From Natribaculum luteum (GTDB lineage Archaea; Halobacteriota; Halobacteria; Halobacteriales; Natrialbaceae): a stretch of 64,000 nucleotides of DNA. The position numbers were made by a program, and so were the translations under genes. This document shows, piece after piece, positions 8,391 through 49,469 of the stretch. The notes under the pieces are model-generated. The model saw only the letters and a program-made list of their open reading frames with translations, was not told where the DNA came from and did not search any database. The DNA lies in contig NZ_CP095397.1 in the NCBI RefSeq assembly GCF_023008545.1, positions 62,001-126,000 of the forward strand, in the 5' to 3' direction. Position 1 is the first letter of the stretch; the number at the start of each line of letters is the position of its first letter.

Positions 8391-8785
8391 ACGATCATCG
8401 TAGCTGTACTCGCGATTGCTCCGAAGCGCTCTGCGACCTCGCGGGCGATCGGGCCCTTGATCTCCGTGCCACGGGGCTCTTCGTTCTCGTCGACGATGAC
8501 CGCCGCGTTGTCCTCGAACTTCAGCCGCGTGCCGTCCGGCCGGCGGATCGGTTTCCGCTGGCGGACGATGACGGCCTCGAGGACCTGCCGGCGCATCTCG
8601 GGGGTACCCTTCGTGACCGAGACGGTCACTTTGTCACCGATCCCCGCCTTCGGCTGGCGGTTCTTGGTGCCGTGGTAGCCCGAGACACTGATGACCTTCA
8701 GCTCTCGCGCGCCCGTGTTGTCGGCACAGGTGACCAGCGAGCCCTTCTTCAGACCCTGCGTGACGTCGGCTTTCATCGCCTCCAT
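8387..8785 (-). CDS. rpl14: 50S ribosomal protein L14 (uL14)
   Basis: 132 residues starting at [12 protein letters not shown]. The ATG at 8785 shares a base with the rps17 stop (TGATG), so I prefer it to a GTG one codon upstream. The uL14 signature is visible in [18 protein letters not shown] and in [19 protein letters not shown]. It forms bridge contacts at the subunit interface. Confidence 0.96.
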
Positions 8786-9228
8786 CACTGATCACCCGCG
8801 TTTTCTTCTGCGCCTTCGGTGACGTCGCCGCTCGCGAGTTCCCGCTCGGGTTCGGCCTGGCGGGTCAGTTCGGCGATGTCTTCCGCAGTCGCTTCTTCGG
8901 TTACTTCGACGACCACGTGCGATTTGGTCTTCGACAGTGGTCGGCACTCTGCGATCTTGACCGTGTCACCGACCGAGAGCGGCTCGAGCACGCCCGGCAC
9001 GTGTGCCGGAATGCGCGAGCGACGTTTCATGTAGCGGTTGTACTTCGGAACCGCCACATCGTACTCTCGTTCGACGACTACGGTCTTGTCCATGTCCGTC
9101 GAGACGACGGTGCCCTCGAGGATCTGACCTCGAACGGACAGCTCGCCGTAGAACGGACACTTCTCGTAGTCGTATTCCTCCGGGTTTTCAGGTTCCGGAG
9201 GGGTTTCTACGTCCAGTCCTATTGCCAT
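8785..9228 (-). CDS. rps17: 30S ribosomal protein S17 (uS17)
   Basis: 147 residues. The OB-fold S17 domain spans about residues 28-110, with [19 protein letters not shown] and [19 protein letters not shown]. An acidic, roughly 27-residue N-terminal extension and an acidic tail of about 40 residues flank it. The first 10 bases overlap the end of rnp1. Confidence 0.95.
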
Positions 9229-9626
9229 GGTGAATCACCGTTCGTTTCGGTGCGTCGGGCGGGTCGTGAGAGCAGCCGCGATCCATCGACCGTAACGTAG
9301 GCCACGCCCTCGCCAGCTCGGTCCGATTCGTCCGAGTGCAGTCCGGACGAATCGGGTTGGGAGTCGGCCAGTTTGAACGTGGTCCCCGATCCCTTCTCGA
9401 GATCGGCGGCGTCATCTGTGATCGCGAACTCGAATACCGAGCCCGATTTCGGCACCTGTACCACCCGAGAGCCGCCGTCGTCACGAACCTCTATCTGGAG
9501 GGTGTTCGTCGTCTCGATGACGACGATCCCCTCGAGTCCGACCGTCCCGGGGTCGTCGCTCTCGGCGACTCGCACGGGCAGGCCGTTGAGTTCGTGTCGC
9601 GGCAGCGTCTCGGGTGTCAGTGCCAT
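9219..9626 (-). CDS. rnp1: Ribonuclease P protein component 1 (Rpp29/Pop4 family)
   Basis: 135 residues. The Sm-like core of archaeal Rpp29 is recognisable: [20 protein letters not shown], then [12 protein letters not shown] and [11 protein letters not shown]. It binds the RNase P RNA with its partner Rpp21 to mature tRNA 5' ends. Its place between rpl29 and rps17 is the normal archaeal location. An insert with [20 protein letters not shown] before the final strand looks like a halophile-specific acidic loop. Confidence 0.93.
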
Positions 9627-43757: not shown

Positions 43758-45155
43758 ATGCGACTACTGGCGTTCGACGGACGGATGGGGGCGAGTGGCG
43801 ACATGATCCTCGCCGCGTTGCTCGCGGCCGGCGGCGATCCCAACGCACTCGAGCCGGTCGAAGATGCACTGGACCTCGAGTACCGGATCGGGACGACGAC
43901 CAAGTGCGGGATCACGTCGACGACCGTCGACGTCCTGCTGACCGACGAGGAGAGCGGCGATGACGAGCACGCACACGGCGAGAGACACCACGAGCGCCAG
44001 CACGGTGACGATGGCGGTCACGCACACCACCATCACGGCGGCGATCACGACCATCACCATCACGACGAAGCCGGCGACGAGCACGACGGGGACCACCATC
44101 ACCACCACGACCACGGCGACGACGAGCACGACCACGTCCACGCCGAAGGGCATGGCCCCCACCGCAGCTATCGCGAGGTCGTCGACATCGTCGCCGGAAT
44201 GGACCTCCCCGCGTCGGTCGAACGCGACGCCCTCGCGATCTTCGAACTGCTCGGCGAGGCCGAAGCCAGCGTCCACGGCACCGACCTCGAGGAGACCCAC
44301 TTCCACGAGGTCGGCGCGGACGACGCCATCGCGGACGTCGTCGGCGCGGCGCTGTTGCTCGAGGACCTCGAACCCGAGCGCGTCGTGACGACGCCGCTGT
44401 CGACCGGCGGCGGCACGGCGACGATGAGCCACGGCGAGTACCCCGTCCCGACGCCGGCGGTCGTCGAGATCGCCGAACGCGCGGACTGGTCGCTCCAGGG
44501 CGGCCCCGTCGAGGCCGAACTGCTCACACCCACGGGCGCGGCGATCCTCGGGCACGTCGCCGACGGCGTCGACTCCCTGCCCGCGATCGACCTCGAGTCG
44601 TCGGGCTACGGCGCGGGCGGCTACGACCTCGATCCGCACCCGAACGTCCTCCGGGCGCTCGTCGGCGAGGCCGAAGGCGAGCTGATCCGCGACGAGATCA
44701 CCGTCCTCGAGACGAACGTCGACGACGCGACCCCGGAGGTGCTGGGCGGCCTGCAAGAATCTCTCGCGGGCGCGGGCGCACGAGACGTCTCGATCCTCCC
44801 GGCGACGATGAAGAAGTCCCGCCCCGGCCACCTCGTGAAGGTGATCTGCAAACCCGAAGACAGCGAGCGCGTCGCCCGGAGACTCGCCGAAGAGACGGGC
44901 ACTCTGGGCGTTCGCGATACCGGCGTGACCTCCCGCTGGATCGCCGACCGGGCGTTCGAGACGGTCGACCTCGAGGTCGACGGCGAGACCCACGAGGTGA
45001 CGGTGAAAGTGGCGAGTGACGCCGACGGCACGATATACGACGTGAGCGCAGAGTACGACGACGCGGCAGCCGTCGCACGAGAGACCGGATTGCCGACTCG
45101 AGTCGTAGCGGAGCGAGCAGAGGCGACCGTCCGTTCCGATCGTACGGCGGAGTGA
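43758..45155 (+). CDS. larC: LarC-like nickel pincer cofactor cyclometallase with His-rich insert
   Basis: 465 residues. It begins MRLLAFDGRMGASGDMILAA, the LarC start, and has DLEETHFHEVGADDAIADVV, TPTGAAIL, VLETNVDDATPEVLGGLQES and MKKSRPGHLVKVICKPED. Residues 71-136 are a His/Asp-rich insert with more than 30 His, a probable nickel store. LarC puts nickel into the pincer cofactor of LarA-type racemases. No larA, larB or larE is in the window. Confidence 0.93.
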   Translation: MRLLAFDGRMGASGDMILAALLAAGGDPNALEPVEDALDLEYRIGTTTKCGITSTTVDVLLTDEESGDDEHAHGERHHERQHGDDGGHAHHHHGGDHDHHHHDEAGDEHDGDHHHHHDHGDDEHDHVHAEGHGPHRSYREVVDIVAGMDLPASVERDALAIFELLGEAEASVHGTDLEETHFHEVGADDAIADVVGAALLLEDLEPERVVTTPLSTGGGTATMSHGEYPVPTPAVVEIAERADWSLQGGPVEAELLTPTGAAILGHVADGVDSLPAIDLESSGYGAGGYDLDPHPNVLRALVGEAEGELIRDEITVLETNVDDATPEVLGGLQESLAGAGARDVSILPATMKKSRPGHLVKVICKPEDSERVARRLAEETGTLGVRDTGVTSRWIADRAFETVDLEVDGETHEVTVKVASDADGTIYDVSAEYDDAAAVARETGLPTRVVAERAEATVRSDRTAE

Positions 45156-45303
45156 TTCCTCGAGGTCTGCTCGAGGCAGACGATCGGTGACTCGAGTACG
45201 ACCCTGTCGGCTGTTACGTGGCCGCTGCTCGAGACGGCACTCCTCGCGTCGCGTGACGACCGGTCGGCTATCGGCGTCGTTCCGTCGACTCGAGGCCGAT
45301 ACC

Positions 45304-45312
45304 AAATAAAAA
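45304..45312 (-). terminator. T-rich terminator after the 233-aa repeat protein gene
   Basis: On the minus strand CTTTTTATTTGG lies 33 bases after the stop codon at 45345. A similar T-rich stretch (TTTTATTTTTTG, 46687-46697) follows the paralogous gene, about 26 bases after its stop. Both are plausible archaeal terminators. Confidence 0.5.
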
Positions 45313-45344
45313 GAGGTGTTCCAATTGGTCGGGAAGCGACCGTC

Positions 45345-46046
45345 TCAGCCGAAGATGAGCGTGGTCAGGTCGCCGGCCGTGGACGTCGCGTCGGCGTTCT
45401 GCTCGTTGACGTTCGAGGCGTCAGCGTTCTGCTCGATCGTCTGGTCGAGCGTCTGGTCGCCGGTGGTGCCGTCGCCGTCGCCGTCGCCATCTCCGTCGCC
45501 GTCAGCGGACGTATCACCCGGGAACGTACACTCGTCAGTGCCTGCTTTGACTATAACCTCCGAGATTGGCTCTTCAGACGTCCAACTGGCCTGATTCGGT
45601 TCGTTCGGTTCTTTGAATTGGACGTCGGTAATCGTAACGCCCATATCGTCGCCACCTTCTGGAACGAACTCGTTCCCGTTCCACTCGAATTTCACGAGGA
45701 GGTCGCCATCCGTATCGTAGAACTGGATGTTGCTAATCGCCGCGCCGTCAGGGTAGTCACAGTTTAGGACCGTTCCCTCGAACGGCGCTCCGTTGCCGTT
45801 ATCGCCGTTATCGCCATCCACGAGATCGCCGAATGCGTTCTGGACACCGATTTGATTCGCGTTCTGTTCGATCGTGTTCGCCTGCGTTACCTCCTGGGAC
45901 TGCGAGACGCCAGCCGCTGACGACCGCTTGTCGCCGTCGCCAGTCTTGTGCTTGTCGCCACCTGCGGCAGCTGTGCCGGCGAAACCTGCGAACACCATGC
46001 TGCCGACGAGCGCGAGCGTCAGTAGCACTGTGATTGACCTTTTCAT
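45345..46046 (-). CDS. Secreted Gln/Asn-repeat protein, curlin-like, 233 aa
   Basis: From MKRSITVLLTLALVGSMVFA a Sec signal peptide ends near AGTAAAGG. Residues 46-75 (SQSQEVTQANTIEQNANQ) and 195-229 (TTGDQTLDQTIEQNADASN) are Gln/Asn repeat half-units. Between them lies a beta domain (about 80-175) with two Cys, C96 and C173, possibly a disulfide, and a (DG)n spacer. The ends match the 140-aa neighbour closely. I infer a minor subunit or nucleator of an extracellular fibre; no homology search was possible. Confidence 0.8.
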   Translation of the reverse strand: MKRSITVLLTLALVGSMVFAGFAGTAAAGGDKHKTGDGDKRSSAAGVSQSQEVTQANTIEQNANQIGVQNAFGDLVDGDNGDNGNGAPFEGTVLNCDYPDGAAISNIQFYDTDGDLLVKFEWNGNEFVPEGGDDMGVTITDVQFKEPNEPNQASWTSEEPISEVIVKAGTDECTFPGDTSADGDGDGDGDGDGTTGDQTLDQTIEQNADASNVNEQNADATSTAGDLTTLIFG

Positions 46047-46055
46047 AGTTCTTGT

Positions 46056-46284
46056 TTGTCCGGGTGAACGCACACGCACTCGGCAGGTGATTCGATGGAA
46101 CGCGGATCGGCGAAGATCACCGCGCGTAATTTGCCGATCGTGTCTCTGCACCCTGCGTCGCGTGCGCGTTTCCCGGTCGAAATCGACCGTAGCAGGCCAT
46201 ATGAAGGCTGAACACCGTTCAAACTGATATCCACTAACTATATTATTCAATCCCTATTACCATCCGAAATTACAGACGTTCGAT
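46056..46284 (-). promoter_or_regulatory. Duplicated upstream region, copy 1 (233-aa gene)
   Basis: Blocks shared in order and spacing with copy 2: TTGTCCGGGTG (46056-46066), TCCCGGTCGA (46171-46180), CATATGAA (46198-46205), GATATC (46226-46231) and ATTACAGAC (46269-46277). CATATGAA reads TTCATATG on the minus strand and could be the TATA element, giving a leader of about 120 bases. A second, imperfect copy of ATTACAGAC and its next 70 bases lies 85 bases further out (46354-46420). Confidence 0.6.
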
Positions 46285-46420
46285 AGTTTCATACTGTTCA
46301 GTTACTGGAATTATACGGTCTCTGTCGGCGTATTGATTCGGGAATTGTCCCAGATTACAGACATTCAATCGCTTCTGTGGATTATATCACTGTAATTATA
46401 ACATCTCTGTCAGCGTATAG
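46265..46420. repeat. Two imperfect 85-base direct repeats
   Basis: The segment 46265-46337 and the segment 46350-46420 align with a constant shift of 85: both have ATTACAGAC, an AATTATA core and TCTCTGTC followed by GGCGTAT or AGCGTAT. The AT-rich repeats lie in the upstream region of the 233-aa gene. The remaining sequence up to 46683 shows no gene. Confidence 0.6.
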
Positions 46421-46722
46421 ACCGTTGCTACACGCGTCTCACGTCGAGTCGGTGAGAGACGAACCGAACGGGTGATTCGTCGTCGACGCAGTAGCCGTGT
46501 CAGTCATTACCTCAAGGCGGACACATCACACCACGTCAACGAGTGCCTTCCGACTCGAGGGGCTGGCTACACCGCTCGAGGACGGTCCGACGACGCCACT
46601 CGACGGCGTCTCGAGGTAACGTCGATTGGCGAGTCAAGCTATCAATTCGTGTTACTCAGCGATAGTTCGGGGACCGATCAGACGGCAAAAAATAAAATCG
46701 CTAATCGATCGGGGAAATCGGT

Positions 46723-47145
46723 TCAGCCGAGGTTGACAGCCGTCGCGGTGCCGGTCTGGCTGTTCCTGTTCGACGCATCGGCGTTCTGGGTGACGTTCTG
46801 GTTCACCGTCTGGTCACCAGTGGTGCCGATTTCGAGGTTAAATCCGTCGCCATCGTTCGGATCCAGGAGACTCGAGGTCCCCGCAGCAGAAGTTTGGCCG
46901 TTGTTGTTGTCATCCTCACTTATATCGACGTCGACCTCGAGTCCAGTGGATTCCTGCTCGGCATCCTGGTCAGCGTTCTGTACGACGATGTTCCCCTGTT
47001 TCACGTCCTGATCCTGATCGACGGTTGCAACTGCGTGGTCGCCATCCGATGTATCTCCGTCAGCGCCTGCAGCCGCCGTTCCGGCGAAGCCAACAAGCAG
47101 CAGGCTTCCGACGACTACGAGCGTCAGTACTGTGTGTCGTTTCAT
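46723..47145 (-). CDS. Secreted Gln/Asn-repeat protein, curlin-like, 140 aa
   Basis: Signal peptide MKRHTVLTLVVVGSLLLVGF ending near GTAAAGA. Repeat half-units at about 42-65 (VDQDQDVKQGNIVVQNADQD) and 107-137 (TTGDQTVNQNVTQNADASN, NSQTGTATAVN), joined by an acidic Asn-rich linker. It is a shorter paralogue of the 233-aa protein: same signal, same C-terminal TTGDQT and QNADASN. Same strand, separated by 676 bases that hold the neighbour's promoter region. Confidence 0.8.
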   Translation of the reverse strand: MKRHTVLTLVVVGSLLLVGFAGTAAAGADGDTSDGDHAVATVDQDQDVKQGNIVVQNADQDAEQESTGLEVDVDISEDDNNNGQTSAAGTSSLLDPNDGDGFNLEIGTTGDQTVNQNVTQNADASNRNSQTGTATAVNLG

Positions 47146-47154
47146 GGTTTTTGG

Positions 47155-47370
47155 TTGTCCGGGTGGACGCGCACGTGCGGTCGGACGGGACACGGTTCGT
47201 CGCGGATGGCTGCCGCTGGTCGTCTTCATCCGCGATTCACCCGCCGTTCGTGGCGCGTCTCCCGGTCGAGGCTCTCACCGGTGGTTCATATGAACCCAAA
47301 CCACGGTTTCAGCCGATATCTCGAGTTTGACCGCACTGTTTCGACTGATATTCGAAATTACAGACAATCG
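47155..47370 (-). promoter_or_regulatory. Duplicated upstream region, copy 2 (140-aa gene)
   Basis: Shares with copy 1 TTGTCCGGGTG (47155-47165), TCCCGGTCGA (47260-47269), CATATGAA (47287-47294), GATATC (47315-47320) and CGAAATTACAGACAATCG (47353-47370). Each block is about 10 bases closer to the start codon than in copy 1. The preserved order argues for a duplication of gene plus promoter and for common regulation. Confidence 0.6.
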
Positions 47371-47808
47371 GTCGATCGTGACCACCATACCAAAACTGGG
47401 TTGAGATTACGACAACGATGGACGACCGAATCTCGATTTTACGGGCGGTCTATGGCCTCGCTACCCGAAACACGCACTCCTATCCAACTCCTACTTTCCC
47501 CTACGCAACAGTTACTCGAGTGAACTAACAGCTACTCGCGATTGTGCCGTCACCGAGGGAGTCACATCGAGATGACTGTTGTGGACGCTCTCGGTCCATT
47601 TAGACCACGCTATCGCTATCGTGGGCCTATCGGCGGCCGTCGATCACCGAGGACATCGGGGAACGGCCCGAATCTGGGCCCGTAAGGGAGTGACTTCGGT
47701 GCTGGTAGCCTCCTTCTTCTCTACGACAACGTACAGATAACAAAGTCATTCATCCGGATACGATGGTTCGCAGTGCACAGACCTAGAAACAAAAGACCCT
47801 CACAGGGC
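47371..47808. other. Gene-free spacer before the large repeat protein
   Basis: Between the promoter of the 140-aa gene (minus) and the 544-aa gene (plus). Only very short frames exist (for example 36 codons from 47418) with no supporting features. Presumably regulatory; nothing else recognised. Confidence 0.4.
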
Positions 47809-47821
47809 ATTTCAAAGAAAT
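47809..47821 (+). promoter_or_regulatory. Perfect palindrome at the promoter of the 544-aa gene
   Basis: ATTTC-AAA-GAAAT, a perfect 13-base inverted repeat centred 20 bases before the ATG at 47835. Its core TTTCAAA is where a TATA box of a leaderless gene would sit, so a repressor bound here would block transcription. Inference from position and symmetry. Confidence 0.4.
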
Positions 47822-47834
47822 CGGAACACACAGA

Positions 47835-49469
47835 ATGACAGCACGGTCACGGATTACGACAGTTCTCGTCGTCGCGATGCTCGTCGTCTCGATGGTCGCG
47901 GCCGCGCCGGCGGCCGGGGTCGAAGAGGACCAAGAGCAGCCAAGCGAGGGCGACCTCGAGGTGACCGAAGACCAGGTCAGAAGTCCCGTCCAGGCACTCG
48001 AGGACGGCGAAGATCTCTATCTGGTCTTTGGCGCGGACCTCAACGGGACGTCCATCGAAGAGTACGTAGAAGCGCACGCGTCTAGTGACGGAATCGTCGC
48101 GACCTCGTCGTCGCAGGAGAACGTCAACCGGCAAGAGGGCGAGGCATCGTCGGCAGGGGCCAGCGCGGACGTCGTCCAGTACCAGGACGTCCAGCAGGTC
48201 AACATCAACGTCCAGGACAACGCGACTGCCATCTCCATCGACGGCGGAGAGGCGGAGGCGATTCAGGAGGCGACACAGTCGAACGTCAACCAGCAGACCG
48301 GTGAAGCGTCGGCAGCGAACGTCGCGCTCGACCCACAGGAGTTCAACTTCGAGAACGTCGGCAACGTCTACCTCGTCATGGGTGAAGGCAGCGCGCCGAC
48401 GTTCGACGGCTGGGTCGTCGCCGACAAGAAAGGGAAGGCGGTTTCCCAGAAAGCCTGGGCATCCGTCGCACAGGGCCAGGACGCCGGCCAGCTGAACTAC
48501 AACGAACAGAGCGTGTCGCTCGCGATCGCCGAGAACGGCAGTAACGCGACCACCTTCCAGCAGACGACGCAGTACAACGAGAACCGCCAGGAAGGTGCTG
48601 CGAACGCGTCCAACGTGTACGCGGGCTACGCCAAAGCCAGCGATCAGGTGTCCGCCGACGCCGCGTCCGGCGTCTACCAGGACCAGGACGTCGAGCAGAC
48701 CAACATCAACGAACAGAGCTACGCGGTCGCCATCGCGATCGGTGAGAACAGCACGGCAACGGCCGTCCAGCTCACCGAGCAGACCAACGTCAACCTACAG
48801 TACGGCACCGCGCAAGCGGTGAACGTGCTGAGCGCGATGGCCGGCATGAACACGGCGACTGCCGGCGGTGACGGCGGCAGCCCGGTTACGACGTTCGGCG
48901 AAGAGAAAGACGGTGGAAACGACGAGAAGAAACAAAAGAAGAAAGAGAAGGGCCACGACGTCGATGGCGGTGAACAGGTGGCCGAGGCGCGGGTCACCCA
49001 GTACCAGAACGCCACGCAGGTCAACGTCAACCTTCAGAATAGCGCTATCGCGATCGCGACGAACGGAAGCGACGCGACTGCTGTTCAGATCTCCTACCAG
49101 GAGAATATCAACACGCAGATCGGCTACTCCGAGGCGGTCAACGCCTACCTGGGTGGCGGCTACGCCCAGGAGGGTCTCGTCTACTCTGACCAGACGGCGG
49201 TCACGATCGACGGGAACGATGGAACTGGCGACCAGCTCGTGTCCTTCGACTACGACACGAATAGCGAACAGACCCAGGAAGTCGATCAGAGCGTGTCTGC
49301 AGTCGTCGAGCAGGTCCAGTTCATCAGACAACAGAACCTGAACGAACAGAGCGCCGCGATCGCGGTCGCCGACGACGGCGGTAACGCTGGCGCAGCGCAA
49401 GTGAGCATGCAGGCGAACGAGAACGTCCAGTTCGCCTCCGCCCAGGCGGCGAACTTCCAGGTCTGCTAG
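47835..49469 (+). CDS. Secreted protein with five curlin-like Gln/Asn repeats, 544 aa
   Basis: Sec signal peptide (residues 1-27, LVVAMLVVSMVAAAPAAG). Five repeats of about 51 residues lie at 113-163, 211-261, 279-331, 387-437 and 491-541, with a half unit at 93-109. The consensus is V-x-Q-x-Q-x3-Q-x-N-x-N-x-Q-x2-A-x-A-I-A, then G-x2-A-x-A-x-Q-x3-Q-x-N-x-N-x-Q-x-G-x-A-x-A-x-N. This is the spacing of curlin-type strand-turn-strand units. Linkers include two YLV-x-G segments and a Lys-rich loop (361-373). The last residue but none other is Cys. I infer an amyloid-like or beta-solenoid fibre subunit. Confidence 0.85.
   Translation: MTARSRITTVLVVAMLVVSMVAAAPAAGVEEDQEQPSEGDLEVTEDQVRSPVQALEDGEDLYLVFGADLNGTSIEEYVEAHASSDGIVATSSSQENVNRQEGEASSAGASADVVQYQDVQQVNINVQDNATAISIDGGEAEAIQEATQSNVNQQTGEASAANVALDPQEFNFENVGNVYLVMGEGSAPTFDGWVVADKKGKAVSQKAWASVAQGQDAGQLNYNEQSVSLAIAENGSNATTFQQTTQYNENRQEGAANASNVYAGYAKASDQVSADAASGVYQDQDVEQTNINEQSYAVAIAIGENSTATAVQLTEQTNVNLQYGTAQAVNVLSAMAGMNTATAGGDGGSPVTTFGEEKDGGNDEKKQKKKEKGHDVDGGEQVAEARVTQYQNATQVNVNLQNSAIAIATNGSDATAVQISYQENINTQIGYSEAVNAYLGGGYAQEGLVYSDQTAVTIDGNDGTGDQLVSFDYDTNSEQTQEVDQSVSAVVEQVQFIRQQNLNEQSAAIAVADDGGNAGAAQVSMQANENVQFASAQAANFQVC

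Follow-up and report, generated by a model that had tools for sequence, protein, structure and literature searches.

Long hairpin leaders appear to precede genes for secreted Q/N-rich proteins across much of the Natrialbaceae

Leaderless gene expression is exemplified above all by the haloarchaea, and in Haloferax volcanii 72% of protein-coding transcripts have been reported as leaderless (PMC4983044). In the 64,000-nucleotide stretch of Natribaculum luteum DNA analyzed here (the window), two minus-strand genes for small secreted proteins, termed A and B, are each preceded by five short blocks in identical order, as described in the initial annotation, with a TATA-like element about 150 to 160 nt before the ATGs. 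This arrangement raises the question of what occupies the space between promoter and start codon, and what it may do there. The features are listed in Table 1.

Table 1. Genes, upstream blocks, promoter elements and leader parts, with positions given within the window
Feature	Position	Strand	Remarks
Gene A (P0001)	45345..46046	-	233 aa, secreted, Q/N/D-rich
Gene B (P0002)	46723..47145	-	140 aa, secreted, Q/N-rich
Signal peptides	45963-46046 (A), 47062-47145 (B)		Majority sequence in the protein family MKRTLTITLTVALIGSLMFMGFAGTAAA
Divergent repeat-protein gene	47835-49469	+	544 aa
Block 1, TTGTCCGGGTG	46056-46066 (A) / 47155-47165 (B)
Block 2, TCCCGGTCGA	46171-46180 (A) / 47260-47269 (B)
Block 3, CATATGAA	46198-46205 (A) / 47287-47294 (B)	-	TATA-like (TTCATATG on the coding strand); 31 nt before the leader GGG in both genes
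Block 4, GATATC	46226-46231 (A) / 47315-47320 (B)
Block 5, ATTACAGAC	46269-46277 (A) / 47357-47365 (B)	-	GTCTGTAAT on the coding strand
GAAAC-type element, gene A, TTTGAACGGTG	46213..46223	-	Upstream of TATA; family consensus TGAAACCGT
GAAAC-type element, gene B, CTGAAACCGTG	47302..47312	-	Upstream of TATA
Leader A, 130 nt (putative start)	46047..46176	-	Hairpin 46060-46176 plus 13-nt unpaired A-rich tail 46047-46059
Closing helix, 5' arm, leader A, CCGGGAAACGCGCACGC	46160..46176	-
Closing helix, 3' arm, leader A	46060..46078	-	Holds the CCCGG of block 1
Leader B, 120 nt (putative start)	47146..47265	-	Hairpin 47159-47265 plus 13-nt tail 47146-47158
Closing helix, 5' arm, leader B, CCGGGAGACGCGCCACG	47249..47265	-
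Closing helix, 3' arm, leader B	47159..47175	-

When extended, the block matches between A and B reached 86% over 36 nt, 75% over 32 nt, 71% over 34 nt and 71% over 28 nt. The same elements were found before homologous genes in other genera, so that the blocks go beyond chance and are kept in relatives. Each block had been described as lying about 10 bases closer to the start in B; this holds for blocks 2 to 5 (offsets of 1088 to 1089 between the copies) and fails for block 1 (offset 1099), which is 10 nt from both ATGs. Because block 1 is equidistant and the others are shifted, the length difference of about 10 nt between A and B lies inside the leader. Reading CATATGAA as the TATA element, as originally proposed, is the best interpretation, with a TATA-like element recurring at fixed spacing in homologous upstream regions. 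Of 24 such regions, 21 have it 31 nt before the leader GGG, two have it at 30 nt and one at 19 nt. These regions also have in common TGAAACCGT, a TATA-like TTCAWRT and a leader start near CCGGGCAACGCG. Read against the general archaeal TATA-to-start distance, the 31-nt spacing is consistent with transcription beginning on the opening bases of the hairpin described below, which would give leaders of 120 to 130 nt, close to the roughly 120 bases anticipated from this TATA element. Directly before the short tails at the ATGs there is a GC-rich arm, without an AT-rich stretch. An extra ATTACAGAC upstream of gene A (46354-46362) lies in an imperfect direct repeat (46263-46336 / 46348-46421, 85-nt spacing).

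Blocks 2 and 1, which read TCGACCGGGA and CACCCGGACAA on the coding strand, contain the complementary ends of one long hairpin. Each leader in the window is predicted to fold into a single such hairpin, running from CCGGG to CCCGG and stopping 13 nt before the AUG. Folding was more stable than in shuffled sequences for leader A (z = -3.15 for 46044-46180; 0 of 200 shuffles as good) and leader B (z = -2.25 for 47143-47269; 7 of 200). The addition of 48 nt of coding sequence left the minimum-energy hairpin unchanged (z = -1.63 for A and -0.96 for B). With some 70 to 80 nt of promoter sequence added, leader B folded otherwise and lost its closing helix, and among 100 non-redundant leaders from the wider set introduced below the helix was retained in 71 when 80 nt of promoter was included; the hairpin reading therefore presupposes transcription from near CCGGG. 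The closing helix stays paired in both A and B despite an A-U/G-C exchange and a G-U/G-C change. The hairpin interiors differ, yet both leaders form one hairpin.

Comparison of the region across related genomes, as the initial annotation had suggested, indicated that the leader structure is conserved. A sequence-only model (R1), derived from 23 sequences with both window copies among them, covered the promoter and the first 16 leader bases and excluded the 3' arm. Across the Natrialbaceae it yielded 147 matches in 85 of 125 genomes and 22 of 29 genera, and both of its matches in the N. luteum genome were leaders A and B. The signal peptide type of the protein family stood behind 141 of the 146 matches with an open reading frame (83 genomes). 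Leaders of 40 nt or more numbered 139 (median 123 nt); of these, 130, from 82 genomes, closed 5' to 3', with at least 8 of the first 16 nt paired with the 3' half; nine did not. The same architecture preceded most homologues in other genera; one locus (L046) had neither the TATA spacing nor the hairpin. The most common closing helix was GGCA-A-CGCGUCAC / GUGAUGCG-UGCC, with one A unpaired. Across the 392 genomes of the order, R1 matched in 78, of which 66 belong to this family and 12 to others; the matches in other families (best E value 1.3e-4, the rest 0.002 to 0.01) are read as probable chance hits, and weak relatives may be missed because the filters were strict. At locus L081 (6451-6570, minus strand), promoter and hairpin were present (75.3 bits under the structural model R2, below) with no family gene start behind them within the stretch read; gene loss may have orphaned this leader.

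The 100 non-redundant leaders served as the test set for structure. On average, the duplex between a leader's own arms was more stable than that between swapped arms (-22.1 versus -17.0 kcal/mol; Wilcoxon p = 3e-17, this and the other p-value here not being from independent tests because the leaders are related). Own arms equaled or exceeded the median swapped pair in 95 leaders and were worse in five; they ranked in the best 1% of swaps in 20, the best 5% in 39 and the best quarter in 75. They also beat other-genus arms on average in all 22 genera (by 0.5 kcal/mol in the weakest), and the leader's own arm outpaired a coding-sequence window in 96 of 100. At least four standard pair types, read from each leader's own duplex, occurred at 17 of 18 arm positions; position 13, for example, was U-A in 37 leaders and C-G in 35. 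The median fold z was -2.73 for leaders (64 of 100 below -2, three above 0; median below -2 in 19 of 22 genera) versus -0.01 for coding controls (8 of 100 below -2). In an alignment of 24 hand-picked leaders with conserved arms (A4), 94% of cells were paired, versus 20 to 61% when slid. Two-sided covariation in A4 was weak (2 of 14 pairs; 54 of 500 shuffles as high), too weak to serve as sole evidence.

A structural model (R2) from 24 conserved-arm leaders did not reach the two window leaders at E ≤ 1. The list of 85 matches from its search included 10 antisense copies of leaders and no window leader; the resulting alignment (A5) was for this reason left out of the counting. The tie of leaders A and B to the family consequently rests on promoter, gene and fold. 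Taken as a whole, a long structured leader before these genes is well supported by the comparisons, and the hairpin is very probably real as RNA and under selection. It appears to be kept by paired compensating mutations before related genes across much of the Natrialbaceae.

The opposite end of the leader has its own regularities. In 122 of the 130 closing leaders a tail of 9 to 26 nt separates the hairpin from the AUG, and the mean predicted unpaired probability was 0.67 at -12 to +3 versus 0.23 for the first 16 nt. The tails contain 43% A and 15% T. The sequences GGAGG, GAGGT and AGGTG were found near the starts of none of the 100 leaders, and partial Shine-Dalgarno sequences occurred in some (GGTGA in 14, GGAG in 6). 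The leaders look non-coding, because they are open in frame at the rate of chance (33 of 100 versus 30% in shuffles), and an upstream coding extension was rejected on that ground. An intrinsic terminator or attenuator was likewise rejected, the tails being A-rich with no U-tract after the hairpin.

Gene A and gene B had been described as duplicated together with their upstream regions. Their common signal peptide was borne out, as was their common C-terminus (59% over 39 aa). That C-terminal stretch, however, is all that aligned between the two mature proteins at an E value of 1e-3, and each has closer relatives elsewhere: mature A is 62% identical over 197 aa to a protein from another genus (genome G082), and mature B is 58% identical over 102 aa to a protein from another genus (G089), followed by 50% over 108 aa in G009. 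A recent local duplication was therefore rejected. Because each mature protein is nearer to one from another genus than to its partner, the pair predates the genus, and on these comparisons A and B are old paralogues belonging to a family-wide gene family. Used as a search query, protein A had matches in 17 of 41 genomes, counting that of N. luteum. At E 1e-3, mature A and mature B each matched no more than 16 of the 141 family proteins, self-matches counted, and all other members were counted in by signal peptide, despite having no mature match to A or B. The signal peptide is nearly constant across the family, far more so than the cargo, and the mature proteins are strongly diverged. In genome G009, a gene matching A and a B-type gene adjoin a homologue of the 544-aa gene, as in the window. 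Natribaculum breve (G001; same genus, family Natrialbaceae) has a single small gene of the A/B type at that place, and the neighboring protein is 89% identical between this species and the window. In Natronolimnohabitans innermongolicus (G020, locus L038, about 8632-9394), three family genes follow in close succession in an operon-like array, with a hairpin leader before the first only; genes 2 and 3 have no leader of their own.

No leader of this type was seen upstream of the divergent 544-aa gene. Its upstream region (47685-47834, plus strand) contains a different conserved element, GATAACAA[AT]G, present in 69 of 76 homologous stretches (the window and 75 loci, whose relatives are not independent). 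In several genomes, a GCCGTG...CACGGC pair upstream of this gene could form a small hairpin, and in G009 (locus L036) its promoter also contains GTCTGTAAT, that is, the ATTACAGAC block of the small genes. Pfam gave no match for A, B or the 544-aa neighbor at E ≤ 1, including no curlin repeat, and gene B had a weak NCBIfam match (E = 0.024, below the cutoff of that model). The predicted structure of the 544-aa protein was of low confidence (mean pLDDT 45.2), and its best PDB match, CsgA, was not significant (E = 2.2). With no significant match in profile or fold searches, membership in the curli/curlin group was rejected.

Bacterial mRNAs such as E. coli ompA have 5'-terminal stabilizing stem-loops. 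The haloarchaeal leaders would resemble these in having a putative stem at the extreme 5' end and a predicted unpaired stretch before the start codon; they differ in their archaeal promoter and decay enzymes and in a much longer hairpin, whose stabilizing effect is hypothetical. The following mechanism is proposed. Genes A and B belong to a secreted Q/N-rich protein family of the Natrialbaceae whose mRNAs carry a conserved non-coding 5' leader. The sequences support well a conserved promoter (GAAAC element and TATA-like TTCAWRT) at a fixed distance from this leader, and a hairpin in which the first 15 to 17 nt pair with bases ending mostly 9 to 26 nt before the AUG; the few A-rich bases left free before the start codon lack a complete Shine-Dalgarno core. 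Transcription would probably begin near the CCGGG of block 2, and the 5'-terminal stem may then shield the mRNA from 5'-end-dependent decay and give these surface-protein mRNAs a long life, and the open tail would allow the ribosome to start. Protection of the 5' end is placed first among the possible roles, since conservation falls on the closed end, the fixed start and the open exit; variable interiors are expected if only these matter. That the hairpin protects the 5' end and leaves the AUG open is given a probability of roughly 0.5.

Ranked second is a translational control element that lowers initiation and is relieved by growth phase, salt, temperature or a partner such as the 3' UTR or a protein, a possible role that we consider less probable. 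It has precedent in a haloarchaeal 5'-UTR stem that reduces translation and sets its timing (Brenneis and Soppa 2009, PMC2636863): there, a stem-loop acted jointly with the 3' UTR to bring translation under growth-phase control, translation efficiency was inverse to stem stability, and a stabilized stem abolished translation, so that a very stable hairpin might repress instead. Removal of some gas-vesicle 5' UTRs also raised translation, by 2.4- to 4.5-fold (PMC8241225). The structured 5' UTR of Brenneis and Soppa is like the leaders described here in preceding a haloarchaeal gene; it concerned a single gene, whose stem-loop has a predicted energy of -7.4 kcal/mol, whereas here a covarying hairpin fills the leader family-wide, with a mean energy of -49.8 kcal/mol. 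Such high stability would suit repression, but the AUG region lies outside the hairpin and is predicted to be mostly unpaired. Binding of a protein or ligand by the leader, in the manner of a riboswitch or protein leader, seems unlikely. It could account for GACGAG in 28 of 98 leader interiors (the highest 6-mer count in 30 mononucleotide shuffles was 17), for the unpaired A in the common arm GGCAACGCG and for AAC at arm positions 7 to 9 in 56 of 100 leaders; against it, the interiors vary widely in sequence and length (leaders of 48 to 161 nt), unlike an aptamer core, and the stretches searched had no Rfam match. With no strongly conserved core, the leaders do not look like a riboswitch.

Operators and mobile elements are further sources of long inverted repeats, and the repeat could in principle act as DNA, as an operator or mobile-element relic, and not as RNA. 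We regard this as very improbable. In 83 of 100 leaders the transcribed strand folded more stably than the complementary strand, beyond shuffles (p = 2e-10, with a small bias toward sense since the 3' ends were set by the sense duplex), and this asymmetry speaks against a DNA-only repeat. When G-U and A-C were scored alike, own helices held 114 G-U and 56 A-C pairs (one helix position supplying 36 of the 114) versus 274 and 222 in swapped arms. The fixed position between promoter and AUG and the single signal-peptide type behind nearly all matches also argue against this explanation.

Searches of Rfam 15 gave no known family for the stretches covered: in the window (45000-48500, E ≤ 5) there was a single unrelated weak match (48417-48461), five loci gave no match at the gathering threshold, and L050 (8250-8500) gave none at E ≤ 2. 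In open-license PMC literature on haloarchaeal UTRs, leaders, hairpins, mRNA decay and curli-like proteins, no account of such a leader was found in the titles and abstract openings among the matches listed, and the portion of the Natrinema sptA paper considered (PMC6085418) mentions neither hairpin nor leader. According to Eckert and Weinberg (2020, PMC7247131), no more than a handful of archaeal cis-regulatory RNAs had been confirmed or even predicted; the archaeal ribosomal-protein leaders of that study, also predicted cis-acting leader RNAs found by covariation, precede ribosomal-protein genes, whereas those described here precede genes for secreted proteins. A structured 5' leader is thus a known kind of element, and this leader family, its extent and its geometry appear to be new.

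These results tentatively suggest a previously undescribed, Natrialbaceae-specific family of archaeal cis-acting leader RNAs that may move as one piece along with its promoter and a signal peptide that is nearly constant, before fast-changing secreted repeat proteins. Such a 5' expression-and-export cassette, an idea we hold as somewhat doubtful, would have the hairpin fix mRNA life, translation or the delivery of the mRNA to the membrane. The covarying hairpin leader would make it possible to test how archaea exploit mRNA structure and how 5'-end-dependent decay works in them, and it may serve as an expression element.
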